A stretch of DNA of 30,437 nucleotides. Source: a virus. The notes below the pieces were generated by a model that had not been told where the DNA came from, ran no database searches, and saw only the letters and a program-made list of their open reading frames with translations. Of the stretch, positions 1 to 30,437 are shown in pieces. Made by a program: the position numbers and the translations under genes. The stretch spans positions 1-30,437 of IMG/VR virus record IMGVR_UViG_3300031772_000190; one strand, given 5' to 3'. Within the stretch, counting starts at the first letter, position 1. Every line of letters starts with the position of its first letter.

Positions 1-474
1 TCCCGTGCCGGAGACAGCCACGGCCACGAATACATCGTTGCCGTAGGCTACGCCACGCCAGTTGTTGTCTTCCGCGCTGGTGCGGATCGTCCAGGTGATC
101 CCGTCCGGGGAGGTCATCACCCGGTTTGCCGCGCCGGTGGAGGCCACGGCCACGAATAGCCCGTTGCCGTAGGCCACGGAGGTCCAGGCGTTGTCTGCCG
201 CGCTGGTGCGAATCGTCCAGGTGATCCCGTCCGGGGAGGTCATCACCCGGTTTCCCGTGCCGGAGACAGCCACGGCCACGAATAACCCGTTGCCGTAGGC
301 TACGCCACGCCAGTTGTTGTCTGCCGCGCTGGTGCGAATCGTCCAGGTGACCCCGTCCGGGGAGGTCATCACCCGGTTTCCCGTGCCGCTGGAGGCCACG
401 GCCACGAATAGCCCGTTGCCGTAGGCCACGGAGATCCAGCCGTTGTCTGCCGCGCTGGTGCGAATCGTCCAGTT
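1..474 (-). repeat. 126-bp (42-aa) tandem repeats inside the tail fibre gene
   Basis: There are three full units (1-126, 127-252, 253-378) and a partial one (379-474), nearly identical at the nucleotide level and in frame. Each unit encodes TSPDG(I/V)TWTIRTSA followed by VAYGN..FVAVA. Units 253-378 and 1-126 share NNWRG and VSGTG, whereas 127-252 has NAWTS and STGAA and the partial unit has NGWIS and SSGTG. Types therefore alternate, giving a higher-order period near 252 bp. The array reaches base 1 at a unit boundary, so the total copy number is unknown. Confidence 0.9.
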
Positions 475-1143
475 GGAAGCGATCAGTGCCGCCAAGAGGC
501 TACCAATCCCCAGGGTGGTTTGAGCGGCGGGAGCGGTCGGGTCGTCCAGCAGCGTCTTGATGAACGCGCTAATCCCGAGGGTGGTTTGGGCCGCGCTCAG
601 GTTCAGGTCGTCCAGTAGTGTCTGTGCCCAGGTCGTTGCTGGCACTCCTACCGGCTGCCCCACCAGCACATCCCCTTCTGCGTCGAATCCCAGGAACTGC
701 GACGCCCGCACCGTGGCCTCCGGGATCTCGGAAAGTGGCTCCTCGTCGGTGATGGATCCCTGCAGGGTCCGGGCGATCCGTTCATCAATCTGCTGCATCC
801 GTGCGGTGGCCCGGTCGAAGTCCTGCTCGAGCAGGTCCATGTCCACGGCCTCGCCGTTGCGGTAGTCGGTCTGCTGGTCGATTTCCAGCAGCCGGTAGAT
901 CGTCAGCCGGATGGCGTCGTGGTCCCAATCGTTCAGCCGGGTGAGCGTGCCGGTGTCCCCGGGAGCGGTCAGGGAGAAATCGGTGTTGAGCACCAGGGGC
1001 AGGTCGGCCTTTCCGGTGGCGACGGGGAAGGAAAGGACGGCGTGGATCTCCGCGGCTAGCCAGTACTTGAAAGTCACCTGGAACGTGTTTCCAAATGGGT
1101 AGTTGATCGTGTATTGCACCTTGTTCGTCGTAGAGGTCAGCAT
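1..1143 (-). CDS. Tail fibre protein, T7 gp17-like N-terminus with beta-propeller-type repeats (3' end beyond window)
   Basis: The reading frame is open from ATG at 1143 to the window edge: 381 codons and no stop. The stop of the giant upstream gene abuts the ATG (TAAATG), and AAGGAG lies 9 bases before it. Residues 1-128 look like the virion-attachment domain of T7-type fibres: VQYTINYPFG at 9-18, DFSLTAPG at 55-62, LTIYRLLEIDQQTDYRNGEA at 80-99, then a helical segment. Residues 175-190 and 197-212 are two copies of a TLLDD...AAQTTLG repeat common in fibre shafts. From residue 224, repeats containing TSPDGxTWT and VAYGNGLFVAVA follow, resembling BNR/Asp-box beta-propeller blades. It should bind the host surface and attach to the tail through its N-terminus. 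The fibre role is firm; the fold of the repeats and the receptor are inference. Confidence 0.88.
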   Translation of the reverse strand, partial: MLTSTTNKVQYTINYPFGNTFQVTFKYWLAAEIHAVLSFPVATGKADLPLVLNTDFSLTAPGDTGTLTRLNDWDHDAIRLTIYRLLEIDQQTDYRNGEAVDMDLLEQDFDRATARMQQIDERIARTLQGSITDEEPLSEIPEATVRASQFLGFDAEGDVLVGQPVGVPATTWAQTLLDDLNLSAAQTTLGISAFIKTLLDDPTAPAAQTTLGIGSLLAALIASNWTIRTSAADNGWISVAYGNGLFVAVASSGTGNRVMTSPDGVTWTIRTSAADNNWRGVAYGNGLFVAVAVSGTGNRVMTSPDGITWTIRTSAADNAWTSVAYGNGLFVAVASTGAANRVMTSPDGITWTIRTSAEDNNWRGVAYGNDVFVAVAVSGTG

Positions 1144-4100
1144 TTACTTCTTCTCCTTCGGGGGTCCGCCTACCAGTTCCCAGGGGTCGCCCGTGTCGAT
1201 GGTCTTGTAGATCCGGCGGGCCTGCACGACCGGCAATCCCGCGGTGCCGCCCAACGTGAACAGCGCGTTCTGTAGATCCCGCATCACCTTCTCTGTCTCC
1301 GCCTGGTTGGCGATGTCGTAAAAAATCTTCCCCACCTGGTAAGCCCCGCCGAAGGGGTTGAGGGCGTCCCTCGAGGGTTCCCCTCGGATGGCCGCTTCGA
1401 AGGCGTTTCCGATGAAAGGGGTGTTGCCCAGGAGCAGGTTGAGGAAGTCCTGCAGCAACCCCTCCTTCGTCATCACGCCTTTACGGGCGATTAGACCCAT
1501 TCCCACGGCGCCGATCAAGAGGCCGGTGGTGTTCATGGCCGCGTCGATCAACGCGCCGGGCTCCCCGCGGAAGCCGGCGGCGATCTTTTGTGGAATGTCG
1601 AAGGTCAGGATGTTCCACTGCTGGTTGGTCTGGTTGGAGAACATCAGAAACCAGCTCAGGCCGGGACTGCGGTAGATGGCGGCCAGGTCCTTGGCGCGCG
1701 CCGCGGGGCGCTTGCGGAGGATGAAATCCCGGGCGGTGTTCCGGGCGACCGTCTCGTTGCCGGTGCGGCGAAGGGTTTTGTTGTACATCGCCTTCCAGCC
1801 GATCACGTTGGTGACTGTGTCCATAGCCTTCAAGACCGCGAAGCCGGTCTCGCCGGCGCCGCGGACCACGCGCTCGTAGGCGTTGCGGTCCAACAGCTTC
1901 ATCTCCTCGATGAAGCGGTCGTAGCTGCGGCGCTTGAGCTGCGGGGCCTTCTCCCAGACTTCCTGGATGGCCTTGCGCGGATTGGCCAGGAATTCCGCCG
2001 CGGCACGGATCCCGTCGACGGGCCCAGCCATCATCATGATCTGCGGGATGTCCGGGATCTGCCGGAGGATGGTCAGCACGTTGTGGCCCAGCAGGCTCAG
2101 GCCCACGTTGCTGCGCAAGATCCGGGCAAACTCCCCGTAGTCCTCGAAGGCCCGGTAGATGTTGGGGTTGGTGTACTGCGCGATATATTTCTGCACCAGC
2201 GGCTCCATGGCGTCGCCGAAGCGATCCAGCATTGCGGCCTTGACCTCCCGGCTGTCGAAGATGCGGGTCATCCGTTTGATGGTCATGGCGTTGGCAATGT
2301 AGAACTCCCGCTTGGCGATGTGGTCCATGAAAACAGCCGGACCATCCAGGCGCATCGGGGGGAAGGAAACGCCTGGGGTGCGTTCCATGCGGCTGCGCAG
2401 GAATCCCTGCCGCGGCCGCGGCTTGCTGGTCTTGCCAGCCATATCCAGGAGCTCGCGGGCCAGCTCGCTCAGGAGAGGGTTGCCTGACATACCCTGGCGC
2501 TGGATCGGGAAATAGCGGGGAAGGCGGTCCATGCGTTGGTTGGAAACGCTCAACTGCACGGCCTGCAGCCGGTCGAAATCCGCGTCGGAAGAGAGGGTTT
2601 CGATCATCCAGTCCCCGTACTTCTTCTCCTCCGGGCTCAGGGCTTTGATGATGTTGGCGATCGAGCTCTGGGCGATCCGGTTGTCCTCCTGCAGGGCGAA
2701 TAGCGAATCCTCGAATTGACTGTAGATATAGACGCCAATCATCTCCGCACGCGTCATCTTCAGCCCATCGATGTTCTCCTGGCGGCCGAAGGTGCGTGCG
2801 GTGAGCGCCAGTTCGCGCAACTTCTCCTCGTTGACATTGGTGTAGGCGTCCACCCTGCGGATCGTCTCGTCGGTGTTCTCGTTGATGGTGTCCCAGAGCC
2901 AGCGCGTAGCCGGGCCGCCGGCGCGGTGATCCATGATTTCTGCGATCCGGTTCATCCGCCAGGTGGCCCACATCATCTTCTTGATTCCGGGGGTCCGCAC
3001 CTGCCGCCGGGCCCCGCGAGTCCCCAGGCCGGCCAGGTCCTTGGGCTTCTGTCCCCCCATGATGGAGGTAGTGACCTCTTTGATCTGGCTATCCATGTAC
3101 TGCCGCTCGCCCAGCAGCGCCGCCATGCGGTTCTTCCGGCCCTTCGTGCGCAGGATCTTGACCTGGTCGTAGAGCTGCCGCATCTCCGCGGCGGTGATCA
3201 GCTTCGGGCTGCGGGCCTCGATCATCTGCACCAGCGCCGGTGGGAGCGGGGCGGTGGGATGCTGGCGCCGCCATTCGCGCAGGCGGTTCTTCAGGCTCTC
3301 GTTGACGTCTGCCGGGTCGTATTCGATCCGGCTCTGGATGTCTTCGATCTGCCGGGCCTCCAGGTCCGCGATGCCGGCGTTCACTGGCCGGTTGATGTAC
3401 TCCGCCCATTTCTCCACCTGGCGCATCTGCCGCTCGGCGATCAACTTCTGTTTGCCGACATCCCGGACCTGGCGGATCTTCGCCTTCAGGGCGGCCCGCT
3501 CCTCATTGGCCCGCTCTTGCAGCTCTTCGATCCTCTTTTTGTCGAGTTGACGCCGGATCACGTCCGTGATGATGATTTTCTTTTTCTGCTCCTCCTTGGC
3601 CTCTCTCATCCGCTCCTTTAGGCGCTGGCGGCCGTCGACGATCTCCGCCTCGTAGCCGGCTTGCTTTTCGGAGAGAGTGCGAACGTGGCGGTTCAGGTCC
3701 GCGATCGTGACCTGCGATTCCCTGGCAGCGAGTTTCATCTGCTCGAGATGAGAGGCGACCTCCCGGCGCAGCCGGGTGTTCTCTGTCAGCAGGCGCATCT
3801 CCTCTGTCTCGGGGGCTCGCTCGAGCTCCGCCTGTAACTGGCGCATCATCACCTCGTCCCCGGTGGCCACGGCGTACAGTTCCCGGTACAAGGTGATGTT
3901 CTTGCGGACCTCTTTCAGCGCCTGCCAGTGGCGGCTGCCGGCGATGTCGTAATCCAGTTCCGTCTCGACGCGGCCGGCTAGCCGGGCGAGGGTCTTGTTC
4001 TTCCCTTCCAGCTCATCGGATCCGACTGTGAGCAGGAAATGGACCATCTGCTTGGGGTCCTGCAGATTGTCGGTGAATCGCTCGTTGGCGACTTTGGGAA

Positions 4101-7100
4101 TGACGGGCACGAAGTCCGGTAGATCCGCGGCGTCCAGGGAAAGCTTGAGCTCCTGCTTCAGGTCGTCGGGCATGGCGTCCCCGAGGATCCGCCGCCAGCG
4201 GGCCGGCTCCGCGTCGATCTGCGCCTTGACCTGGACCTCCAACTCCGGATCGCGCACCCCGTCCAGGATCTTCGTCCCGTAGCTGAACATCTCCGGGCTC
4301 AGAGCCTCGATGGCCGCTTGGTCGACGTCGCCTTTGGTCAGGAAGATCGAGCCGAGGGCGTGGTGAATGGCGTCCCCGTCCATCGCGTCCTTGAAGTGCT
4401 GGTCGGCGAGCTCGGAGGGGGCGGCCGTCTCGCGGGAGCGGTCCCAGATCAGCCGGTAGTAGCTTTCATTGGGCATGGTCCCCTGGTGGCTCTTGGCCTG
4501 CCAATCGAAGAACTCCTCGAAGGTTTCTACCTGGCGGGCGGCGCTGGTGAGGTAGTCCCGGACGTCCAGCTCGGTACGGGCCCACTCCCTGTCCCCGTAC
4601 TCGCGCAGGACCTTGTAGGGCACCGGCATCTGTTTCTCCACGGCCTGGTGGACACTCTCTTCGTGGGGGCTGGGTTCATAGAGGATCTTCCGGGTAGGCC
4701 CTTCGGGCGCCGGGAAGGCGGCCTGGGCGCGCTCGCGCTGGGCTTCCTCGGCCCAACTTCGCTCGAACCCCTGCCGGGCCACTTCATAAGAGCGCTCCTG
4801 CAGGTCCTGCGTGGCATCGGCCTCCAGGCGTGCGCCGGCCTGGTCCGCTTCCTGCCGGCTGTCGTACCACTCGATCTTCTCGCCGTTGCGGGTCAGGTAA
4901 TAGACCGGCTGGCCGGATTCGTCGGTGCCTTCCTGCACGTCGAATCGCGGCCGCTCCTTGTCCGCTCTCTCAAAGATCGTCTGGGCCCGCTGTGCGGTCT
5001 CCTCCTCCCGGAAACGCTCCATCTCCGCGCGGAGGACCTCCTCGGAGGGCTTGGCCGGCTGGATCTCGACGGTTTCCATTCTGGGCTGAACGACTCCCTC
5101 GGGGGTCTGGTCGGTTTCCCAGGAGCGGCCGGTGGCCATCTCGTAAGTGAGGCCTGTCTGCTGCACGCGGCCGAGGCCGGTATCCATCCGGCCTTCTGGG
5201 TGCTCGGCAATCGGATACACCCAGGCGAGAACCTTTTGCTCTGCCCACTTCGCGGCGGCGGTGCGGCGGTGGCCGTCGATCACACGCAGGGTGCCGGCCT
5301 CCGTCTCGAGGACCATGATCGGGGGCGGGGTCTTGCCCTCTTTCATCCAGGCGGCGTAGCGGCGGGCGTCATCGCCCCGTCCCTCGAAGTTGGGCTCCTT
5401 CGTGTAGTCGGGTTCCTGCAGCTCCAGCTTGTAGGGATCCAGCCAGCGGAGCTGGGCGAGTTCATGGCCATGGATCCCCTTGAACTGGTCATCGACCATC
5501 CACATGCCTTCCTGCAGTCGGAGGGCGGAGAGCTCGGCGGGCTGCAGCCGGGAGGAGACGGCCTGGTTGCCGTTCTCGTCGTAGTAGAACCGCTTCCAGG
5601 CGGCGTGGAAATCGCTCGAGCGCAGGACGTTGTCGGTGGTCAGGTCCGCGGGGTCCCCCGGCTCGGGCCCCTCGCCGGGCCGGGTTTCGAAGAGCACGTT
5701 GACGTCTCCCGGGATGCTCTCGGTGGGCGCGTGGACCTGGCCGGAGAGGGCCTTGTTGTACAGCTCGATGATGTCGGGGCTGATCTGCCATTCTACGCTG
5801 GCCCCCTCGTAGACCTGATTGACCCAGCGGGTGAAGCGGGCGAAGACCGGCGCCAGTTCTTGGTTAGGGGCGAGGCCCTTCGCCATGTAGGCCACGGCTG
5901 TCTGGGCGAAGGTTTCTTTGTTCTTCTCGCTCCAAGCTCCGGTAATCCCCAGCCAGCGCTCTACGGTGCCGCGCTCGATGGGGGTCAGGTCCGTCTCGAA
6001 CTGATGGGTGAGCTCATGGACCCAGGTAACGAAATCGGAGCGGGTGGTGGTGTAGAAGATCCTCTTGCCGGCGTTGGTCCAGGCGATGGCGCCGCGGTGG
6101 CCGGCGGCCTCCAACTCCGCGGCCTTCTCCGGGGAAAAGACACCCTCGATGAATCGCTTCCCGATGTACTGGCCCAGGCTCTCGCCGATGTGGCTCGCCA
6201 ACAACTTGGCGTAGAGTGCGGCTCCCTGCGCCTGTGGGATGGTCAGATTCGGGAGGCCACGGCGAATGGTGGCGACGACCGGACTACCCTGCGACAAATC
6301 GTTTTCGGACTGGATTAACTGCTCCACATGGGTTAACATTGATGTGGAGGACGGGATGGCTGCTTTTATTCCCTGGGTGGTTTCAAGAAGCGATGATGGC
6401 CGTATTTCGGCCGGCTGCCCTGCCTTCTCTCTGATCAAGGACGACGCCGGCTGGGACGTGGGTGCCCCCACCCCGGACGATCTCAAGGACAACTGGTCCC
6501 GGGTCGGCTCCAACACCAGGCCCTCGAGCGAGGCGGTCAAGTTCTTCCAAGAAGCCAAAGCTGCATTCCTGTCGGTCCCCAATCTGCGCATGGCGTTCGA
6601 GAAAGCCTCCTCATAAGAATTCCAGGACGTGTCCAGATCTGCGTAGTATTCCCGGGCCCGCTCCGGATCCCGAATCACTTCGTTGATGTCCTTGCTCCGC
6701 CACTTTTCGAATAGGGCGTGATTCCCCGCCTTCTTGGCGGCCTCTACTTCGGCCAGCGGCGTGTAGAACTCGACGAGCTGGCCGTTGGGCATTCGCAGGT
6801 CGGCGCCGGCGAAACGCCAACCCCATTCCTTGGGCTCGAACATCTTCGCGGTGTCCAGCTCGACCACCTGGGCGCCGGTTTTCTCCAGCATCAACCGGAG
6901 GCTGTTTCCGAAATCCTCCAGGGTGTTGGAGATGACCTTGAAGCGCAGGGCATCCCGGATGTGCTCTACGTCGTGCCAGGGACGCTCCGCCAGGATGATC
7001 GGACGGGTGGCCTTCTCGATGATCCGCTCGGGCAGCTTGTAGGAGGATTTCCCTTCCAGGCCAAGCTGTCCCTTGATGGCCGCCAGGCCGGCGTCGAGGA

Positions 7101-8952
7101 TCGGCTTGTTCTCATCGCTCAGGACTTTCAGGGCCCGGACCTTCTCTGAGGTGGAAACGTCCCGGGGGATAGGGTTTACGATGTCCTGCTCTCTCAGGGT
7201 GGCCCCAGGAGTGCCCTTCGCTGTTGAGCGTAGGGCCTCCGCTGCGACGTTCGTCGCCTGGCCGGGCATTCTCCCGATTTCGGCTTGCTGGCCCCTCTGG
7301 CGGGCCGTTTCGATAGTTTCCTGTTCCCCCCGGGTCCTCTGCCAGGCCTGGTCCGGGGCCCGGGCCTCCGCGTCCTGCTTCAGGCTCTCCAGGTACTGGA
7401 TCTCGATCTGGTTGTTGCGGTGCGTCTCGATCTTCTTCTGCAGGTCCCGGCCGATATCCGCGGCCTCGGTGATCGCCTCCAGCTCGGGGCCCAGCTTCTC
7501 CTGTTCCTTGCGGAGCTCCTCGAGGCGGGTATCGATCTCCACGGCGCGCTGCTGCAGGGGCCTGGCGGTGTCACTCATTTCTTCGAGTTTGCCCAGGCGA
7601 GCCTTTACCGCGGCGGTCTGCTCTTGGACGAGCAGGCCCCTTACTCCGCGGCGGGCTTCCCCGATGGATCCGGGTAGCGCGATCAACAGACTGGTTTCGA
7701 AGGCCCCTGGGAGGCCCTGCAGCGCCAGACGGGCGTAGTCCTTCACTGTGAATGCCTTGACCTGCTCGATCGGGGACGGCTGGCCCGGGGCGGTCGGCGG
7801 TCCTACGATCTCCCCTTCCGCGGCGATCGCGTTGGCGGCTACCTGTTGCACCAGGATTTCCAGGTCCATCATGGTCATTTGGGTTCCGAGGTTCTTCCCG
7901 TACTTCTGCAGCATCTGCCCGATGAAGCCGCGGAACACGCCTTGCTCCCCGGCCCTGCGGATCGCGCCCAGGCCCATGTCCTGCATGAGCTGGGGAAGGC
8001 GGCCGATCATGCTTTCAAAGGCGATACCGCTGGCCACGCCGGTCAGGACGCCGCCGGCCAAGCCGGTCTTCTGCGCGAGGGCCCAGAGTTCCTCCGGGTC
8101 CCGGACCACCTGGTAGAGCGGCTTGCCTGTGTTGGGATCCGGGTAGGTCATGGCGTCCATGAAGATCTGCGCGGCATCGAGGCGGGTGCCTTCCGCCAGG
8201 CCGCCGAGTCGCCGGCCCCAGAGGAATCCCTTGGCTGCGCCCGCGGGGCCCGCGGCCAAGCCGCCGATGCCGGCCCCCACGGTTCCGACGACCAGCTCGG
8301 CCAAGCCCATGTCCAGGAGGTAGGGGGCCTGGGCCAGGGCCCGAGCCGGTACGCGCTTTACGAAATTCCAGAGGGCGCCCTGGTCCCGGGTGACCATCTC
8401 CGGCGGGATCTTGTCGAGGGTAGCCTGCAGCGCGTCGAGCTTCTCCCGGTTGAAAGGTCCCAGCATCATCTCGCTGGCCTGGTTGGTGGCCGCGTACAGC
8501 CTGAATGCCCGCTCTGCCTCGTTTTTCATGTAGCCGGCGTAGGTGGCGGGCATCTCGGTGCTCTTGAAGTAGGTTTCCGCGTAGGGGTTGCGGCCTTGCG
8601 AATCCCAGCCTCCGTAGACGTCTTCGGCCGGCACGTTGAGTCGGTCGCCGATGTAAAAGGAGAGCTGGATCTTCTGCATCTCCTCCTGCTGCTTCTCGGG
8701 GCGGTCCTTGTACTGGACCTCTGCCATGCTCTTCATGACCTGGTAGCTTTCCGCGTAGCGACTGGCGCGATACTCCGCCCAGAAGGGATCCGCCTGGGCT
8801 GCGCCGGCGCTGGTCATCGTGCGCAGGTCTGTGGGCGCGGCCTTCGCCCATATCTTGTTGGGATCCTCTTCGGGGAGTTCCGGCGGTCGGTAGATCCCGG
8901 CCCCGAAAGTGGAGAGATCGGTCGGTTTGGCGCGTTCCCAGATATCGGCCAT
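1144..8952 (-). CDS. Giant internal virion (ejection) protein with polyvalent-protein domains, T7 gp16-like position
   Basis: This 2602-residue protein is about twice the size of T7 gp16 and holds the last internal-virion slot before the fibre. The start at 8952 has GGAG 6 bases upstream, 3 bases after the preceding stop. Visible parts: a duplicated IWxxAxPTDL motif (residues 4 and 34); Gly/Ala-rich hydrophobic segments near 215-250 and 295-315; a RelA/SpoT-like region at about 610-755 (IRDALRF 665-671, RMPNGQLVE 720-728); a zinc-metallopeptidase motif HELTH at 979-983 with a possible third ligand in NKETF; a ParB-like DGHRRT at 1226-1231; long charged coiled coils at about 1715-1950; and a C-terminal part with LPRYFP and a hydrophobic stretch near 2465-2490. 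This resembles phage polyvalent proteins fused to an ejection protein delivered into the host on infection. Domain calls are by motif. No transglycosylase motif was recognised. Confidence 0.85.
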   Translation of the reverse strand: MADIWERAKPTDLSTFGAGIYRPPELPEEDPNKIWAKAAPTDLRTMTSAGAAQADPFWAEYRASRYAESYQVMKSMAEVQYKDRPEKQQEEMQKIQLSFYIGDRLNVPAEDVYGGWDSQGRNPYAETYFKSTEMPATYAGYMKNEAERAFRLYAATNQASEMMLGPFNREKLDALQATLDKIPPEMVTRDQGALWNFVKRVPARALAQAPYLLDMGLAELVVGTVGAGIGGLAAGPAGAAKGFLWGRRLGGLAEGTRLDAAQIFMDAMTYPDPNTGKPLYQVVRDPEELWALAQKTGLAGGVLTGVASGIAFESMIGRLPQLMQDMGLGAIRRAGEQGVFRGFIGQMLQKYGKNLGTQMTMMDLEILVQQVAANAIAAEGEIVGPPTAPGQPSPIEQVKAFTVKDYARLALQGLPGAFETSLLIALPGSIGEARRGVRGLLVQEQTAAVKARLGKLEEMSDTARPLQQRAVEIDTRLEELRKEQEKLGPELEAITEAADIGRDLQKKIETHRNNQIEIQYLESLKQDAEARAPDQAWQRTRGEQETIETARQRGQQAEIGRMPGQATNVAAEALRSTAKGTPGATLREQDIVNPIPRDVSTSEKVRALKVLSDENKPILDAGLAAIKGQLGLEGKSSYKLPERIIEKATRPIILAERPWHDVEHIRDALRFKVISNTLEDFGNSLRLMLEKTGAQVVELDTAKMFEPKEWGWRFAGADLRMPNGQLVEFYTPLAEVEAAKKAGNHALFEKWRSKDINEVIRDPERAREYYADLDTSWNSYEEAFSNAMRRLGTDRNAALASWKNLTASLEGLVLEPTRDQLSLRSSGVGAPTSQPASSLIREKAGQPAEIRPSSLLETTQGIKAAIPSSTSMLTHVEQLIQSENDLSQGSPVVATIRRGLPNLTIPQAQGAALYAKLLASHIGESLGQYIGKRFIEGVFSPEKAAELEAAGHRGAIAWTNAGKRIFYTTTRSDFVTWVHELTHQFETDLTPIERGTVERWLGITGAWSEKNKETFAQTAVAYMAKGLAPNQELAPVFARFTRWVNQVYEGASVEWQISPDIIELYNKALSGQVHAPTESIPGDVNVLFETRPGEGPEPGDPADLTTDNVLRSSDFHAAWKRFYYDENGNQAVSSRLQPAELSALRLQEGMWMVDDQFKGIHGHELAQLRWLDPYKLELQEPDYTKEPNFEGRGDDARRYAAWMKEGKTPPPIMVLETEAGTLRVIDGHRRTAAAKWAEQKVLAWVYPIAEHPEGRMDTGLGRVQQTGLTYEMATGRSWETDQTPEGVVQPRMETVEIQPAKPSEEVLRAEMERFREEETAQRAQTIFERADKERPRFDVQEGTDESGQPVYYLTRNGEKIEWYDSRQEADQAGARLEADATQDLQERSYEVARQGFERSWAEEAQRERAQAAFPAPEGPTRKILYEPSPHEESVHQAVEKQMPVPYKVLREYGDREWARTELDVRDYLTSAARQVETFEEFFDWQAKSHQGTMPNESYYRLIWDRSRETAAPSELADQHFKDAMDGDAIHHALGSIFLTKGDVDQAAIEALSPEMFSYGTKILDGVRDPELEVQVKAQIDAEPARWRRILGDAMPDDLKQELKLSLDAADLPDFVPVIPKVANERFTDNLQDPKQMVHFLLTVGSDELEGKNKTLARLAGRVETELDYDIAGSRHWQALKEVRKNITLYRELYAVATGDEVMMRQLQAELERAPETEEMRLLTENTRLRREVASHLEQMKLAARESQVTIADLNRHVRTLSEKQAGYEAEIVDGRQRLKERMREAKEEQKKKIIITDVIRRQLDKKRIEELQERANEERAALKAKIRQVRDVGKQKLIAERQMRQVEKWAEYINRPVNAGIADLEARQIEDIQSRIEYDPADVNESLKNRLREWRRQHPTAPLPPALVQMIEARSPKLITAAEMRQLYDQVKILRTKGRKNRMAALLGERQYMDSQIKEVTTSIMGGQKPKDLAGLGTRGARRQVRTPGIKKMMWATWRMNRIAEIMDHRAGGPATRWLWDTINENTDETIRRVDAYTNVNEEKLRELALTARTFGRQENIDGLKMTRAEMIGVYIYSQFEDSLFALQEDNRIAQSSIANIIKALSPEEKKYGDWMIETLSSDADFDRLQAVQLSVSNQRMDRLPRYFPIQRQGMSGNPLLSELARELLDMAGKTSKPRPRQGFLRSRMERTPGVSFPPMRLDGPAVFMDHIAKREFYIANAMTIKRMTRIFDSREVKAAMLDRFGDAMEPLVQKYIAQYTNPNIYRAFEDYGEFARILRSNVGLSLLGHNVLTILRQIPDIPQIMMMAGPVDGIRAAAEFLANPRKAIQEVWEKAPQLKRRSYDRFIEEMKLLDRNAYERVVRGAGETGFAVLKAMDTVTNVIGWKAMYNKTLRRTGNETVARNTARDFILRKRPAARAKDLAAIYRSPGLSWFLMFSNQTNQQWNILTFDIPQKIAAGFRGEPGALIDAAMNTTGLLIGAVGMGLIARKGVMTKEGLLQDFLNLLLGNTPFIGNAFEAAIRGEPSRDALNPFGGAYQVGKIFYDIANQAETEKVMRDLQNALFTLGGTAGLPVVQARRIYKTIDTGDPWELVGGPPKEKK

Positions 8953-17920: not shown

Positions 17921-17991
17921 TGGCGCTCATGCCAGAGCACGGCCACGATAGCCTTGGGGTCTGCGTTACTCGTCGGCTGAAATGAGGACAA
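17797..17991 (-). CDS. Small unknown protein with TTG start
   Basis: A 64-residue protein. ATG at 18063 would place 24 extra residues inside the upstream gene; TTG at 17991 is preferred because AGGAGG (17998-18003) stands 6 bases upstream. It overlaps the 3' end of the Gln-rich gene by 26 bases. The sequence has a beta-like segment (AIVAVLWHERQCNIVIDTT), then a helix (IQEILEQAKKIIRGMIRQ), and ends in a very basic tail (RRHIRRPR). I do not recognise the family. It lies with the repeat protein and the Bbp19-like gene in the head block. Confidence 0.6.
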   Translation of the reverse strand: MSSFQPTSNADPKAIVAVLWHERQCNIVIDTTKDRRGIQEILEQAKKIIRGMIRQDRRHIRRPR

Positions 17992-18871
17992 GCAATTCCT
18001 CCTCTTCGCTTTCGCGCTTTGAAAACCCGCCGCCGGGTCCCTTGCGGGATACCCGGATAGCATCCGGCTGGCGAGCCGGCGAGCTCGCGGCCGGTCTTGC
18101 CGGGGCCTTTCGGAACGCCGGCGGCGGTTGAAGTCGAATCGCTTCGGGTTTGAATGCTTCCGGCTGGTAGTCGAACGGTTCCCAGCCCTGCGCGGTCTTC
18201 GCCTGGCCCTGCTGCTCTTGTCGGGCCTGCTCCTGGTCGACCGCGCAGTCGATGCTCACTTGCAAAGGCGGCAGGATCTCGGAGGTCGTCTCCGGCCATT
18301 TCTCCGGCCAGCTCAAGCCGTGCGGGATCTTCTGCGGCTTGGCCTTCTTCTTTCGTTCAGGCTGCCGGCGCGTGTCCGGCAGAACGCGGGTGCTGTAGTA
18401 GCCGCCGGAGACGGGTACCGCGGGGGCCTGGGGCTCGAGAACGCCGCTCTGCTGCTGTTCGGCTTGGTCCTGGGCAACCGTGACGTCCGTGGAGATGATC
18501 GGATCGTGGACGTCCGCCTCAGCATCCTGCTCCTGTCGCTCCTGCTCCTGGGCTACGACTGCAGCGGCTCCGGTGACAGCATCCGAATCCTGCTGCTGCG
18601 GGTCTTGAGTCTGCGCTACGATGATCGGCGTGACGGTGACCGCGCTGGCCTGCTGTTGCTGCGGATCCTGCGCCTGGGAGCCGACGACAGGCATGGCGGT
18701 GATCGCGTCGGCATCCTGCTGCTGTTTGGCCTGCGCCTGGGCGACGGTGACTGCGGTGGATCCGGCTCCGCCGGCGGGCTGGATATTTTCTTGGTCGTAC
18801 CAGCCCTCTGTGATAACGAGAGGATCAAACCAGCCTTCGACGCGAAGGAGAGGACTGAACCAGCCTATCAT
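17966..18871 (-). CDS. Gln-rich repeat protein, probable virion-associated protein
   Basis: A 301-residue low-complexity protein whose ATG overlaps the stop of the glycine-rich fibre gene (ATGA). Residues 3-27 are three 10-residue repeats of the form GWFxPLxxxE. Residues 43-143 hold five copies of a roughly 21-residue VAQxQxxQQQxxDAxT unit, and a sixth diverged copy lies near 214. The middle has a basic Lys/Arg stretch (PERKKKAKPQK), a Trp/Pro-rich piece (LSWPEKWPE), and the C-terminus is acidic (SEEEELLVLISADE). Proteins with GWF repeats next to a fibre gene occur in related podoviruses, but I know no function. An extended or disordered surface protein is plausible. Repeat-driven length change is likely. 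Confidence 0.75.
   Translation of the reverse strand: MIGWFSPLLRVEGWFDPLVITEGWYDQENIQPAGGAGSTAVTVAQAQAKQQQDADAITAMPVVGSQAQDPQQQQASAVTVTPIIVAQTQDPQQQDSDAVTGAAAVVAQEQERQEQDAEADVHDPIISTDVTVAQDQAEQQQSGVLEPQAPAVPVSGGYYSTRVLPDTRRQPERKKKAKPQKIPHGLSWPEKWPETTSEILPPLQVSIDCAVDQEQARQEQQGQAKTAQGWEPFDYQPEAFKPEAIRLQPPPAFRKAPARPAASSPARQPDAIRVSRKGPGGGFSKRESEEEELLVLISADE
17998..18003 (-). promoter_or_regulatory. Ribosome binding site for a TTG start
   Basis: AGGAGG lies inside the last codons of the Gln-rich gene, 6 bases before TTG at 17991. It is the strongest initiation signal for this frame and is the reason the TTG start was chosen over the distant ATG. Confidence 0.6.
18443..18745 (-). repeat. About 63-bp Gln-rich tandem repeats
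   Basis: Five degenerate copies of a unit of about 21 codons with the core VAQ.Q...QQ...A.T, encoded by runs of CAG/CAA codons. Spacing between cores is 20-26 residues. A detached sixth copy (VDQEQARQEQQGQAK) lies further downstream. Confidence 0.8.
18785..18865 (-). repeat. Three tandem 10-residue GWF repeats
   Basis: The N-terminus of the Gln-rich protein reads GWFSPLLRVE, GWFDPLVITE, then GWYDQENIQP: three tandem copies of a 30-bp unit, the third diverged. Confidence 0.8.
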
Positions 18872-19887
18872 GCGTACTCATCCACGACGATCACGCCAGC
18901 GGTTCCGTTGCCTCCGGTGCGCACCGTCGATGCTCCCGTAGCCGCACCGCCGCCGCCAGATCCGAATCCGATAGCGGCAACTCCGGCACCCACGGCCGTA
19001 ATACCTATTCCGCCTCTCCCGAATGGGCTGCTTCCACCCTGGCCAGAACCAATAACGGGTGTAGCCACAATCAATGTTTTGCCGCCATCCCCGCCCGCAC
19101 CTGCACCGTTGAGATCTCCATTTGTGGCAATTGCCCCCCCGGCACCGCCCGCATAGGCCGTGAGCGCCGTGGAAGCTGTAGCCACAGGACCGCCGGTTCC
19201 TCCCGGCGCTGTGACTGTAGTGGCACCGACTGCGAAAGTTGTGCTGCCTCCGTTGCCTCCCGCCGCGCCTGACGCGCCAGCTCCCAGCGCGCCGATGGCA
19301 TAGGTGTAGTTGGTATTTGGAGTGACTGTGAAAGTTTTCTCGGCATAGGAGCCGGCACCTCCGCCGCCGGCAGCAGAGGCGGCGCTGGCAACAGAAGTGC
19401 AACCTCCACCTCCGCCGCCTCCTCCCAGTAGGCGTACAAAAATAGTCTTCGTCTCTGGCCCTGTGGTGAACGTAGTCCCCGCGCTCAGTACCGTCGTCTT
19501 GAGCCATCGACCCGATCCGCTCTGCGCGACCTTGACCGCTCCGTTGGCATCCCGGACCTGGAATCCTACACCATCGAGATAGGATAGCGTCTCGCCGGCC
19601 TGCAGCGTAGCCTTGAACAATTCATAGGTCGTGGCGCTGCGGTTCAGAACGACCGTCAGGTCGTCACTCGAAGCGCCCTTATTCCGCGCCAGCAGGCTTT
19701 GTAGGTTGCGCTGCCCGGAGGCCGGCGAGGCGACGATGTCCGTGGTGGTGGCTGTACTGATCGCCGTGACTTGCGGGTTCTGCGGGGTCGGTGGAGTTCC
19801 GCTGTCTACAAAGTGCGCGGTAACGTCAATGGCGATTGCGGCACTGGTGACGAGCTGCAGCTTATCGGTGGTTCCCAGTAGTAGCAT
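18868..19887 (-). CDS. Glycine-rich fibre/structural protein
   Basis: A 339-residue protein. Residues 1-125 form a beta-rich head module (LLLGTTDKLQLVTSAAIAID at 2-21, later LNRSATTYELFKATLQAGET) that is common at the N-terminus of phage head and tail structural proteins. From residue 150 it becomes a glycine-rich domain: Gly8 at 155-162, then AAGGGGAGSYAEKTFTVTPN and many GGAGG and GGNGG runs, ending VIVVDEYA. This architecture is typical of phage fibres that form polyglycine-helix tips. It lies between portal and scaffold rather than in the tail block, so a head-attached fibre is as likely as a tail fibre. The start follows the upstream stop by 4 bases. Confidence 0.75.
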   Translation of the reverse strand: MLLLGTTDKLQLVTSAAIAIDVTAHFVDSGTPPTPQNPQVTAISTATTTDIVASPASGQRNLQSLLARNKGASSDDLTVVLNRSATTYELFKATLQAGETLSYLDGVGFQVRDANGAVKVAQSGSGRWLKTTVLSAGTTFTTGPETKTIFVRLLGGGGGGGGCTSVASAASAAGGGGAGSYAEKTFTVTPNTNYTYAIGALGAGASGAAGGNGGSTTFAVGATTVTAPGGTGGPVATASTALTAYAGGAGGAIATNGDLNGAGAGGDGGKTLIVATPVIGSGQGGSSPFGRGGIGITAVGAGVAAIGFGSGGGGAATGASTVRTGGNGTAGVIVVDEYA

Positions 19888-23877: not shown

Positions 23878-24410
23878 GCTTCCTCCGCGTCGACGGGTAT
23901 GGCCGCCTCAACTTGCTTGACGATGCGCGCGCGGACCTCCGGCTGGTCCATGGTGGCCCGGAAGATCGCCGTGCGAATGTAGGCGAATATCTGCACCAGA
24001 GCCCCGCCCTCCGCTACCTCTGCCCCGCTCGGGGCGCCGTCGCTTTTCTCGATCAGATACTTCATGGCGATCAGGTCCCCATCCTGGATGGCCTTCGAAT
24101 AGAGTTTGTCGACGACCGCCCGGCGCCTGGTGATCTTCCGGCCGTCCCTTGTGTCGACGTCCTTCGCCTCCGCGAGCTCGCGGATCATCTCCGCATAGGC
24201 TTGGCCGCTGGGTGGCCGCCCCTTCCTGTTGATGCGCGGGTCGTTCGTCCCGAAAGGCCGGCCGGTAGCCGGTCTGCCCTTCGGAGGGCCCGACTTCTTA
24301 TGCGGCAGCGGCTTCCTGCGCGATTTCCGGGGCGGACCTGGCTTCTTGTGGCGCCCCAGTTTCTTACGCGATTTCCGGGCAGAAGCGGCGCCACTCGAAC
24401 GCCTTGCCAT
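23874..24410 (-). CDS. Putative small terminase subunit (DUF5681-like)
   Basis: A 178-residue protein directly upstream of the terminase ATPase. ATG at 24410 has GGAGGT 8 bases upstream and overlaps the methyltransferase end by 47 bases. Residues 11-50 are a very basic Pro-rich tail with a duplicated HKKPGPP / HKKSGPP element. GRPFGTNDPRINRKGRPP (50-67) matches the DUF5681-type signature. The rest is helical (AYAEMIRELAEAKD, then VVDKLYSKAIQDGDLIAMKY). Position and DNA-binding composition support the packaging-site recognition role of a small terminase. The family is less certain than the role. Confidence 0.65.
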   Translation of the reverse strand: MARRSSGAASARKSRKKLGRHKKPGPPRKSRRKPLPHKKSGPPKGRPATGRPFGTNDPRINRKGRPPSGQAYAEMIRELAEAKDVDTRDGRKITRRRAVVDKLYSKAIQDGDLIAMKYLIEKSDGAPSGAEVAEGGALVQIFAYIRTAIFRATMDQPEVRARIVKQVEAAIPVDAEEA

Positions 24411-25848
24411 TCCGCGTCACCTCCGGCTCGAGGTGCCGTGCGTGGATCCACAGGCACCAGCGCTTTACTATCAGGTCCACGAAGCGCTTGTCTATCTCGA
24501 TGCCGCGGAACAGCCTGCCGGTCCTTTGGCAACCGATCAAGGTGCTGCCGCTGCCGGCGAACATATCCAGCACGATCTCCCCGGGCTCGGTGTTGTTCAG
24601 GATGGCGCGCTGCGCGAGTTCCACGGGTTTCTGGTTGGGATGAAGGTAGTCGGCCTTGGTGTCGGGCCTGGCCTCCCAGACGTCCGATCCCTGCAGGGTG
24701 GTGAGCAGCAGCGACTCGCCGGGCTCGAGCATCATGCTGCGGTGTTTCTTACTGCGCGGCGGATCGTGCTGCAGGTAAAGATGGTTGCCCTCCGGGTCGG
24801 CCAGCAGGATCCCCTCGGCCAGCACTGCGAACGCCTGCGCCTTCTTGCGGACGGCCACGGTCCAGGTGGTGCTCTGGGTGCGGTCCCCGGTCCACCGCGG
24901 CGTGGTTTGGCCCTTGCCGGCGTAAAAACAGGGCTCATGCTGGTAGTGGTAGTTTCCCCGGCCCATGACGATCCAGGGCTTCAGCCAGATGATGTACTGC
25001 CGCTCCATCAGGCCGGCCGCGGTCAGGGCTCGCTCGAAGTACTTCCGGCTCACTGACGCATGCCAAATGTAGAAGGCTGCTTCGTCGAGGGTGTGCGCCA
25101 CGGCCTGGCGGAATGCCGGCGCGAGTACTGTCTTCTCGAGCTCCGCGCCTCGTTTCTCGTCGTTGGAGATTCCGCCCAGATACTTGGCCTCCCCGCGGCT
25201 ATCGTAGTCCACGCCGTACGGCGGATCGGTGAAAACGAGCTGCGCGCGCTCCTCGGCCAGCAGGGCCGTGTACGATGCGCGGGCCCTGTTGTCGCCGGCC
25301 AGGATGCGGTGCGGCCCCAGGCCCCACAGGTCCCCGTCCTTGGAGATCTTCGGGGCCCCGCCTGGCAGGTCGTCATCTCCTCTCTCGTCCCTGGTCGGCC
25401 GCACCGTCTCGAGGCGGATCTCCCCGGAGGGCAGCCGCAGGTCGGCGTCCAGCTTCATGCCGGCGCTGAAATCGCGGAGGCCCTCGAGGGTGAATTCCCC
25501 GTACTGGCTGGATATGCCCAGTAGCGCGTCCTTGGCATCCTCGATGTCCTTCGCCTCGATGATATCGTAGGGTAGCCGATCGGGGACGGGGTGGCCCTGG
25601 GCCTCTAACTCCATCAGCGCGAGGGTGCGCTGGTGGCCGTCGAGGATGTAGCTGGCACCCTGCTCGTCGATCCAGACGTGATAGGGCACGTTGAATCCCT
25701 TTTTCAGGATCCGGTTCTTCAGCTTCTCGAGGTTCTTGCGGCTGATCTTCTTGAGGTGGCCTTGCAGGGCGATGAGCTGCTTGCGGGCGATCAGGCCCTT
25801 CCCGGAGCAGGTGATCCGGATGGGCGTCTTCTCAGCCTTGGTTGGCAT
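24364..25848 (-). CDS. DNA methyltransferase with N-terminal ParB-like domain
   Basis: A 494-residue protein. ATG at 25848 overlaps the previous gene by 17 bases and has GGAGG 10 bases upstream. Residues 1-110 are ParB-like (YILDGHQRTLAL at 67-78). The methyltransferase follows with GDLWGLGPHRILAGDN (172-187), catalytic DPPYGVDY (208-215), HPNQKPVEL (403-411) and SAM-binding LDMFAGSGST (427-436), then GIEIDKRF. Motif IV precedes motif I, the beta-class order, and DPPY suggests N6-adenine or N4-cytosine methylation. A segment of about 60 residues between QSTTW (325-329) and SDVWEA looks inserted. No restriction enzyme is nearby, so it is probably a solitary enzyme that protects phage DNA or regulates expression. 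Confidence 0.9.
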   Translation of the reverse strand: MPTKAEKTPIRITCSGKGLIARKQLIALQGHLKKISRKNLEKLKNRILKKGFNVPYHVWIDEQGASYILDGHQRTLALMELEAQGHPVPDRLPYDIIEAKDIEDAKDALLGISSQYGEFTLEGLRDFSAGMKLDADLRLPSGEIRLETVRPTRDERGDDDLPGGAPKISKDGDLWGLGPHRILAGDNRARASYTALLAEERAQLVFTDPPYGVDYDSRGEAKYLGGISNDEKRGAELEKTVLAPAFRQAVAHTLDEAAFYIWHASVSRKYFERALTAAGLMERQYIIWLKPWIVMGRGNYHYQHEPCFYAGKGQTTPRWTGDRTQSTTWTVAVRKKAQAFAVLAEGILLADPEGNHLYLQHDPPRSKKHRSMMLEPGESLLLTTLQGSDVWEARPDTKADYLHPNQKPVELAQRAILNNTEPGEIVLDMFAGSGSTLIGCQRTGRLFRGIEIDKRFVDLIVKRWCLWIHARHLEPEVTRNGKAFEWRRFCPEIA

Positions 25849-26200
25849 GCCGGTATAACCTCCGTTGGGTATGGCAGGCGGTGCCCCCGCGTTTGAACAG
25901 CCGGCAGGCGTCGGGCCGGGTTTCGTATATGTTGCAGTGGCCGCTGCCAGGCAGGAAGGGGCAATAGAAATTCCAGGTTGGGCTTTTTCCGTAGGTCTGC
26001 CCATCGTCTGCCCTTTTCCTGGGCATTAGTCGGTACTTGGCGGGCTCGTACTCCTCCGCCGCGAGCGCTGCCTTTATGTTCCGGCCCAGGTCCTGCGGCT
26101 TCAGCTTGAGCACCAGGTGGTGGCAGCAGGCATGGCACGCGATGCAGGATTCGCCAATCAACCGCTGTTCCACGGCTGTTTTGCTGGGCTTTTTCACCAT
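25832..26200 (-). CDS. YkgJ-like Cys-cluster (zinc/iron-chelating) protein
   Basis: A 122-residue protein with ATG at 26200 overlapping the upstream stop by 7 bases. The Cys pattern CIACHACC (C19, C22, C25, C26), then YCPFLPGSGHCNIYETRPDA (C80, C89) with C99, matches the UPF0153/YkgJ family, whose cysteines are predicted to bind zinc or an iron-sulfur cluster. C109 is extra. Length is normal for the family. Biochemical function is not established. Phage copies occur near DNA-modification genes, and here the next gene is a methyltransferase, but a functional link is a guess. Confidence 0.8.
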   Translation of the reverse strand: MVKKPSKTAVEQRLIGESCIACHACCHHLVLKLKPQDLGRNIKAALAAEEYEPAKYRLMPRKRADDGQTYGKSPTWNFYCPFLPGSGHCNIYETRPDACRLFKRGGTACHTQRRLYRHANQG

Positions 26201-28505: not shown

Positions 28506-28924
28506 TGTCCCCTGTTCCGCCCCGCCGGCCTTCCGCGGATTTTCGCCTCGTAACGCAGCGAGATCGTGTCGCCGCCCCCCAACAAGAAGCCCACGTCAGG
28601 CCGGTCTTCGCTCTGGAGTGGATGAATACAGAGATGCTGCCAGCGCACCGTGAATCCGTACTTGCTGGCCTGGAAGAAGAAAACGAAACGGGCGTCGTAG
28701 GGGGCATACTGCCAGCCCAGCGTGTCGGCAAAGAATATCTGAGCCGATCCGCCCACCTGCAGGAAATCGAACAGCTCCCCGGCGGCCTCCAGCGTGACGT
28801 AGGGAGATTCGATCTGGTAGCCGGCCTGCAGGCTTCCGCCGTCCCAGCCGGGCGCCGTGAACATCAATTCGCTCTGCGCGTGAAAGCCCGCCTCCAGGGC
28901 GAAGATGAAAGCCAGCCAGCTCAT
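28502..28924 (-). CDS. Predicted beta-barrel-like envelope protein
   Basis: A 140-residue protein whose ATG overlaps the ParB-like stop as ATGA. The N-terminus MSWLAFIFALEAGFHAQSE resembles a short, uncharged signal or anchor segment. The remainder alternates hydrophobic and polar residues in strands (SLQAGYQIESPYVTLEAAGE, FDFLQVGGSAQIFF, FVFFFQASKYGFTVRWQHLC, DTISLRYEAKI), the pattern of an outer-membrane beta-barrel. IHP after WQHLC is a motif seen in similar small phage proteins of unknown role. An envelope role such as exclusion of superinfecting phages is inference. The C-terminus is basic. Confidence 0.6.
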   Translation of the reverse strand: MSWLAFIFALEAGFHAQSELMFTAPGWDGGSLQAGYQIESPYVTLEAAGELFDFLQVGGSAQIFFADTLGWQYAPYDARFVFFFQASKYGFTVRWQHLCIHPLQSEDRPDVGFLLGGGDTISLRYEAKIRGRPAGRNRGQ

Positions 28925-30437
28925 GGGGAGGCCTCCGCCTTCTTTGCCTGCGGCTTCTTCGCCGGCGCCCTCTTCTTGGCCTTCGGCTTGCCCGCCTTCT
29001 TGGCGCGCTCCTCCCTCGCCTTGGCTTTCTCGGTGAACTCCTTCCGGACCTGCGCCGCGATCGCGTCGATGTCCAGCTTGTAGATCGCGGCTACCTCCTT
29101 CATCCGCCGACATTCGGTGCCGTGCCAGCCAGGCCCGATCAGGTCCTGGGCCAGGGTGACGGTCAGCATGAACTGGAGTAGCTCGTCGCTTTCGTACTTG
29201 GCGATCCGTGTCCTGCCCATGCGCTCCCAGGGGTAGCCGTATTCCCCCGACTGCCTGGGCAATTCCTTCCAGCCCATCGCCTGGCAGTAGGCCCCTTGAA
29301 TATCGCTCAGGGTCCGCTGCCATAAGTTCTGCGCAATCATGCGCAGCAGCTCGGCCGACATCGCCTTGAATACCTTCTTGGTCTCGAGCACCCGGATCAC
29401 CGCGTCCCAGGTCCTCTCCCGGATGGCCACCTGGATCTTCGCCTCGAGGAGTTGTTTCTTGCGGGCGGTCTTCTCCGCGGCGGTGGGCTCGGAGCGGCCA
29501 TAGCGGTTTTGCTTGCGCTCCCGGCCGTAGGTCAGCCGGCCCGGGTTGTCGCCGGCGACTACCAGCGCCGGCACCGCGTCCTCGTCGCTCTTCTTGCATT
29601 CCTCCCAGGCGGAGGATTCTTTTACGCCGGCTTTCTTTAGCCGCTGTTGCTCCTTCCAGTCCAGGCCATAAGCTCCCCGGTCCAGGACCTCGAGGTGCTT
29701 CTGGCCCTTGAGCTCCTGCCGGCGCCGCTGCACCAGGGCCTCCAGCTTGCCGTGGAAGCAGGGCGGGTCTGTGCAGTAGTCCTTCTTGCCGCCGTTGCAG
29801 ACGTCTGCAAAAAGCGCCGGCTGGTAGCCGGTGCGCTTCGGGCAGGTGGTGCAGGGCCCGGCCTTCGGGTCCAGCTCCGCGTCGTCTCTCTTGAAGGCTG
29901 CCCTGCTCAGCTCCAGCAGGATGTGCTGGCGGATGTAGACGTCGATCTCGCGCACCGAGATCTCCTCGCCCCGCTGGAACAGGAAGCAGCCGAGGATCTC
30001 CTTCTGCTGGGCCGGTTGCAGGCGGGCGATCAGGATGGCGTGGCCAGCCTGGATCTTGCCTTCCTCGAGCTGCTTCTTCGCGGGCGGGATCAAGTCCTGC
30101 AGCTTGAGGCGTTGGTAAATGTAACTCGGGCTGCGGCCTACCTCCTTCGCCAGGAGTTCCACATCGTAGTCGCCTTTGGCGATCAAGCGGGCGTAGCCCT
30201 CCGCCTCGTCCAGGGGATGGATGTCCTCGCGTTGCAGATTTTCGATGGTCGCGATCTTCATCAGCGTGGCGTCATCGATCTCGCGCACCACGCAGGGAAG
30301 GGTGGCCAGGCCGGCCAGGCGGGCGGCCTTCCAGCGGCGCTCGCCGGCGACCAGCTCGTTGGGCTCATCGGCGTGGGGGTTGACGGGGTTCAGTCGCACC
30401 AGCGCGGGATGAAGGACGCCGACTATCCTGATTGATT
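28921..30437 (-). CDS. ParB-like protein with Cys cluster (5' end beyond window)
   Basis: The frame is open to the right edge. GTG at 30399 is not the true start, because the codons before it (IRIVGVLHPALV) continue a normal ParB N-terminus. Counting from that GTG: ELVAGERRWKAA (15-26) is the conserved arginine-rich nucleotide-binding motif, ENLQREDIHPLDEA (53-66) the next conserved box, and DVELLAKEVGRSPSYIYQRL (79-98) the helix-turn-helix. A Cys cluster (C183, C186, C201, C209, C214) suggests a zinc site. Residues 460-492 are a Lys/Ala/Pro-rich histone-like tail. No ParA is visible. Roles could be phage DNA maintenance, transcription control or nucleoid-like DNA binding. Confidence 0.88.
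   Translation of the reverse strand, partial: SIRIVGVLHPALVRLNPVNPHADEPNELVAGERRWKAARLAGLATLPCVVREIDDATLMKIATIENLQREDIHPLDEAEGYARLIAKGDYDVELLAKEVGRSPSYIYQRLKLQDLIPPAKKQLEEGKIQAGHAILIARLQPAQQKEILGCFLFQRGEEISVREIDVYIRQHILLELSRAAFKRDDAELDPKAGPCTTCPKRTGYQPALFADVCNGGKKDYCTDPPCFHGKLEALVQRRRQELKGQKHLEVLDRGAYGLDWKEQQRLKKAGVKESSAWEECKKSDEDAVPALVVAGDNPGRLTYGRERKQNRYGRSEPTAAEKTARKKQLLEAKIQVAIRERTWDAVIRVLETKKVFKAMSAELLRMIAQNLWQRTLSDIQGAYCQAMGWKELPRQSGEYGYPWERMGRTRIAKYESDELLQFMLTVTLAQDLIGPGWHGTECRRMKEVAAIYKLDIDAIAAQVRKEFTEKAKAREERAKKAGKPKAKKRAPAKKPQAKKAEASP

Follow-up and report, generated by a model that had tools for sequence, protein, structure and literature searches.

The window analysed here is an entire linear viral record of 30,437 bases. 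At its first base lies the cut end of a tail-fibre-like gene, read from the minus strand, which passes from an N-terminal base into a tandem repeat array. The features of this region are as follows.

1..1143, minus strand: tail-fibre-like gene, 381 codons present (open reading frame with an ATG start at 1143; 3′ end lost at the contig edge)
472..1143, minus strand: N-terminal fibre base and linker, residues 1-224, with an LGI-SAFIKTLLDD type motif (31-35% identity to six other fibre bases)
346..471, minus strand: repeat unit 1 (WTIRTSAADNGWISVAYGNGLFVAVASSGTGNRVMTSPDGVT), from the sequence
220..345, minus strand: repeat unit 2, key residues N11 R13 G14 V27 S28, from the sequence
94..219, minus strand: repeat unit 3, key residues A11 T13 S14 S27 T28, from the sequence
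1..93, minus strand: incomplete repeat unit 4, truncated at the contig edge, key residues as in unit 2, from the sequence
220..471, minus strand: copy one of the 252-bp period, units 1-2 (TRF period 252, 95% matches)
1-219, minus strand: copy two of the 252-bp period, units 3-4 (95% identity two units apart)
433..441, minus strand: variable codons 11 and 13 of unit 1, on either side of Trp12 (found at equal offsets in units 2, 3 and 4)
388..393, minus strand: the variable pair of codons 27 and 28 of unit 1 (found at equal offsets in units 2, 3 and 4)
346..363, minus strand: Asp-box of unit 1, S-P-D-G-V-T, with the following unit's Trp after it (from the sequence; also in units 2 and 3)
1144..8952, minus strand: 2,602-residue gene directly upstream of the fibre gene, probably for an ejection protein (from its size and its position between the tail genes and the fibre)

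The array is in frame, runs over window positions 1-471 (minus strand) from residue 225 of the protein, and holds three complete 126-bp (42-residue) units and 31 of the 42 residues of a fourth. Because the contig edge at base 1 cuts it, its copy number is unreadable from the window. The opposite end of the contig interrupts a ParB-like gene (28921-30435, minus strand), so both ends of the contig are breaks.

Profile searches placed a terminase, a portal (head-to-tail connector, E 2.5e-79), a major capsid protein GP7 and tail tubular proteins among the neighbouring genes, a set that identifies the phage as a podovirus; the portal is nearest to those of Pelagibacter phages and epsilon15 (25-27%). 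The 2,602-residue protein matches only phrog_9880 (function not assigned, E 8.8e-23) and a ParB-like stretch, and by its size and position it is probably an internal virion (ejection) protein. It has almost no relatives besides Dolichospermum phage Dfl-JY45. A relative of this gene was sought to recover the complete fibre; none was present in viral_contigs, and the array is cut in the sole copy. The ParB-like stretch, embedded at residues 1166-1245, also has a 41.6% match in Dfl-JY45. Elsewhere in the window, a Gln-rich protein (17966-18871, minus strand), without a match in a Pfam search, carries a diverged 63-bp (21-residue) repeat at 18587-18724 of the type VTVAQAQxxQQQDADAI. A second fibre-like protein (18868-19887, minus strand) has a glycine-rich tip (Gly_rich_2 and tail-fibre profiles) and lies at a distance from the propeller fibre, and the phage may therefore carry two kinds of fibre. 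A DNA methylase (N6_N4_Mtase) is encoded at 24364-26004, minus strand.

Residues 4-128 of the fibre gene give weak matches to tail-protein profiles (phrog_1640, E 6.8e-6; phrog_13893, E 1.6e-3), and the structure predicted for the fibre base by AF2 is of low confidence (pLDDT 37). The six loci with a related base (L076, L077, L079, L080, L083 and L091) are among 26 fetched with the base as query, and the propeller repeat is absent from all 26; in L079 the base bears instead a tip read from its sequence as collar-type. Since loci with a related fibre base bear other C-termini, the propeller would be a swappable tip. The same propeller module occurs in other phages behind tail-fibre, tail-spike, major-tail-protein and baseplate-like N-termini. 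The gene has the three features of a phage tail fibre, i.e., a fibre-base N-terminus (by weak profiles), a swappable C-terminal tip and a position among virion genes. The tail profiles, the podovirus neighbours and the exchange of tips on a common base support its assignment as a putative tail fibre, and receptor binding is a likely role for the tip.

The initial annotation described the array as near-identical 126-bp repeats of two alternating types, with a 252-bp higher-order period. The repeat is borne out both by the reading frame and by TRF, which scores the array at 711 for period 126 and 867 for period 252, far above chance. The longer period is likewise real in the DNA, with 95 and 95% identity between units two apart as against 88, 88 and 80% between neighbours; the longest exact repeat is 44 bp. 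In their scaffold DNA the units of the window are 95.5-97.3% alike, and at most 83% alike to any unit elsewhere. Alternation of two types thus holds for the DNA, but it is only half right for the protein: units 2 and 4 have N, R, G, V and S in common at the key positions (three changing codons and one silent codon differ), while units 1 and 3 differ at six codons, every one of them amino-acid changing, with all silent sites alike. Given four units in two pairs, the 1-3/2-4 pairing has a one-in-three chance; in strength, the alternation of the window ranks in the top 0.7% among 872 four-unit stretches of relatives. A single two-unit (252-bp) duplication followed by coding change would account for it. 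L036 contains a comparable duplication of two units, likewise local, with an exact repeat of 208 bp. As a rule of the family, alternation was rejected: the 13|24 pairing was best in only 253 of 871 four-unit stretches, and identity two units apart exceeded that of neighbours in just 34 of 96 viral arrays.

The fold was predicted on L003, a relative with seven units that shares 83% identity with the units of the window; 39 relatives were aligned for this. The AF2 model of this array (pLDDT 96.8, pTM 0.93) has 28 strands, four in each of seven units, with the Asp-box between strands 3 and 4; the array opens with an outer strand and closes with a third strand, the usual closure of such rings. The best Foldseek match in the PDB was YCF48 (TM 0.70-0.74), and VIA-align returned virginiamycin B lyase (Z 32.9, 2.3 A, 276 residues) and the highly repetitive propeller 2ymu (Z 28.8, 2.5 A, 269 residues). 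Among viral predicted structures, the matches (56-63% identity) included proteins of uncultured phages and a collagen-like protein of a Hokovirus. The latter, from Hokovirus HKV1 (BFVD A0A1V0SF56), is a giant-virus collagen-repeat protein whose propeller shares 60% identity with that of the phage.

At the level of motifs, SPDG[IV]TW recurs at residues 261, 303 and 345 of the fibre protein. The Asp-box consensus, as given in two earlier reports, is SxDxGxTW (S/T-x-D/N-x-G-x-T/S-W/F/Y; PMC9218822, PMC2716378); the repeated motif is Asp-box-like and not a letter-perfect match, since its D and G are adjacent, one residue fewer than D-x-G. Pfam gave EPTP at 29.8 bits (above the cut-off of 21) and DUF6242 at 20 bits (below the cut-off of 29), and no BNR or YCF48-like family exceeded its curated cut-off. 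A sequence-profile search of the PDB matched no chain. The reading of the repeats as propeller blades is well supported for the close relative L003 by the model and its fold matches, and a seven-bladed, YCF48-like propeller is predicted with high confidence for that array.

Among units at least 85% alike, amino-acid change gathers at codons 11, 13, 14, 27 and 28. This was quantified as pN/pS, counted over related pairs rather than by a tree-based codon model, with arrays resampled, in 39 viral arrays (the window left out) and in an independent set of 45 arrays from bacterial contigs. Codons 11, 13 and 27 reached 2.12, 2.77 and 2.66 in the viral set (95% intervals from 1.6 up) and 1.75, 1.93 and 1.73 in the bacterial set, against 0.23 and 0.19, respectively, for all remaining codons pooled. 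Values were 1.53 (viral) and 1.10 (bacterial) at codon 28, and 1.27 and 0.46 at codon 14. Trp12, flanked by the variable codons 11 and 13, is nearly invariant. The 11 amino-acid-polymorphic columns of the window include all five of the family-wide variable columns (P = 5e-4); pN/pS in the window alone is not significant, the signal being family-wide. By the strand topology of the L003 model, the variable residues lie in loops 4-1 and 2-3, on one face of the antiparallel blade. The earlier proposal that differences between units cluster at surface-like positions is strengthened by these results, as codons 11, 13 and 27 exceed the silent rate in two sets and share one face. Fast change on a single face is as expected of a surface adapting to new targets, and the putative face formed by residues 11, 13 and 27 most likely binds a host surface molecule, multivalently.

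The same pattern could arise if the blade were newly amplified and its loops were under relaxed rather than diversifying selection, in a propeller with a structural or generic binding role. Single blades have been amplified repeatedly in all major lineages, viruses too, according to a propeller survey (PMC9218822), and for codons 28 and 14 an excess over 1 is not robust across both sets. Relaxation, however, would raise pN/pS to about 1, and codons 11, 13 and 27 are well above that value in two independent sets and adjoin the nearly invariant Trp12, which makes this explanation unlikely, though it retains some weight.

Unit number was examined in 74 viral loci found with the partial protein of the window as query; units were counted with a unit profile, and blocks touching contig ends were left out. 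Seven units were present in 62 of 93 distinct uncut blocks and fourteen in a further four, across wide sequence divergence. The other 27 blocks had different counts and were mostly very uniform or very divergent arrays; counts below seven came from the most uniform arrays, and from highly divergent ones in which the profile misses blades. Seven units were also found in 90 of 109 arrays from bacterial contigs, a set fetched with a seven-unit query, so that this count is biased against shorter arrays and is no main evidence.

A rival explanation is that short-read assembly of near-identical units, by collapse or by chimeras between co-occurring strains, made the array, its alternation or its count, the contig having broken for the same reason. 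Contigs of relatives end inside arrays beyond chance (17 of 74, with 9.3 expected, P 0.005), and among the uncut viral arrays with 3-6 units are the most uniform of all (L043, L061, L026, L009, L024 and L002, each with a mean identity >0.9). In a fungal parallel, repeats of 126 bp could not be rebuilt from Illumina assemblies (PMC12222747). An artefact would nevertheless have to explain an open frame in which the units carry many linked silent and coding differences and share no exact repeat longer than that given above, and also the recurrence of seven units in many separate assemblies, named isolates among them (e.g., Flavobacterium lacus, Alpinimonas psychrophila and Synechococcus phage B23). 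This origin is regarded as rather improbable. In the last of these isolates (L102 3920-4888, + strand), the frame of the seven-unit propeller is unannotated, and two hypothetical genes are annotated over it on the opposite strand.

The initial annotation also suggested that copy number may vary between virions, with comparison to related phages as a check. As a general property this is mostly not supported, since a count of exactly seven prevails in uncut arrays, which argues that blade number is constrained rather than freely variable. The comparison did reveal two near-identical pairs that differ, in copy number or through assembly: L010 has seven units and L012 six, with flanks 98-99% identical, and L021 has nine and L022 seven, with flanks 98% identical. 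In fungal arrays, too, gain and loss of repeats is frequent (PMC2873952). Against these stand the near-identical or related pairs with equal counts (L003/L004, L006/L007, L018/L020 and L027/L028), and the two exceptions may be assembly effects. An array whose blade number changes often, and by doing so tunes receptor binding, thus has a low probability. The window shows 3.7 units, and by extrapolation its whole array presumably had seven.

Mutation of the variable codons by a DGR is very improbable: phage receptor-binding proteins are DGR targets (PMC10743442), but no reverse transcriptase (PF00078) was found in the window and 29 related records (30 in all, many of them fragments), third-base purines are frequent at codons 13 (40%) and 27 (34%) and do not give the NNY pattern of AAY templates, and the changes between units 1 and 3 of the window are not adenine-specific.

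In our assessment, the array is probably where a seven-bladed Asp-box beta-propeller begins; this propeller, diversified on one face, would be an exchangeable tip at the distal end of a podovirus tail fibre. Each 42-residue unit would correspond to one blade, one strand out of register, with the last blade completed by the first strand. New blades would come from single units or pairs of units by duplication or conversion, with the scaffold kept nearly identical, and a two-unit duplication of this kind would have produced the 252-bp period of the window. Seven blades would be kept by selection because the ring must close. Selection would meanwhile diversify residues 11, 13 and 27 (28 weakly) in each blade, on a single face, and this face, at the fibre tip, would bind a host surface molecule. 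Both the location of the array at the fibre tip and the recombination mechanism are inferences. Concerted evolution across the whole family was considered and rejected: the nearest scaffold neighbour lay within the same array for just 52% of units, and homogenisation is clear only for the window and some other arrays.

Several known systems resemble this one. The seven-bladed YCF48 and Asp-box (BNR) propellers share an Asp-box-like S-x-D-x-G-x-T-W motif in each unit and the predicted number of blades; YCF48, however, shares only ~15% identity with the model and has a photosystem peptide as its ligand, whereas the blades described here are near-identical in DNA and belong to a putative phage fibre. 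In mode of action the array comes closest to the fungal HET WD40 repeats, a likeness drawn by analogy for which homology is not claimed. In the HNWD genes (het-d, het-e and het-r) the units are also of 42 residues (126 bp) with high DNA identity within an array, and each has two clusters of positively selected codons on one face, one pair of which flanks a conserved residue (PMC1805685, PMC2873952). The selected codons are 7, 9 and 25, 27 in HNWD (PMC1805685, PMC2873952) and 11, 13 and 27, 28 here. HNWD proteins differ in being fungal immune receptors with WD40 rather than Asp-box repeats, typically 11 in number, and in their strong repeat instability, whereas here seven dominates; a Pfam search of the window gave no match to the WD40 family.

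The highly repetitive propellers surveyed by Pereira and Lupas (PMC9218822) are alike in their recent blade amplification, with the Asp-box lineage and viruses included. In its accessible part that survey covers amplification and blade counts, with no mention of phage fibre tips or of rapidly evolving residues on a face. Caulobacter phage KSC gp039 is, similarly, a podovirus fibre encoded right after an internal virion protein, and matches the repeats of the window at 42.9% over 89 residues; its blade-like stretches are, in contrast, scattered and divergent, without a uniform array.

The propeller family occurs frequently in bacterial contigs from many phyla as well, and some of these may be prophages. 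It is therefore not specific to phages or to host binding, and it may serve in other kinds of recognition. L011 (1-12106, with eight blocks of seven) and L005 (9271-21681) encode giant proteins in which separate seven-unit propellers are strung together. In L010 (5658-6950) a propeller is fused to a major-tail-protein-like domain, and because of this fusion it may decorate the tail tube and not a fibre tip. That amplified propellers exist, Asp-box and viral ones among them, was already known (PMC9218822); among the open-access papers searched, none was found that describes this family of phages and bacteria, with its rule of seven units and its fast codons on one face. We suggest, tentatively and with rather less confidence than we place in the tail-fibre reading, that the propellers on phage fibres and in many bacteria together form a widespread recognition repertoire, in which recombination homogenises the seven interchangeable blades and 3-4 face residues of each blade diversify, as a prokaryotic parallel to the fungal HET WD40 proteins.

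Short-read assemblies break in such arrays or shorten them, with the result that fibre tips are absent from many viral contigs. A large and mostly unannotated set of phage and bacterial proteins can be recognised by a signature that is simple to count (seven units; codons 11, 13 and 27 evolving fast; a nearly invariant Trp12), which also points to the probable binding face of each.
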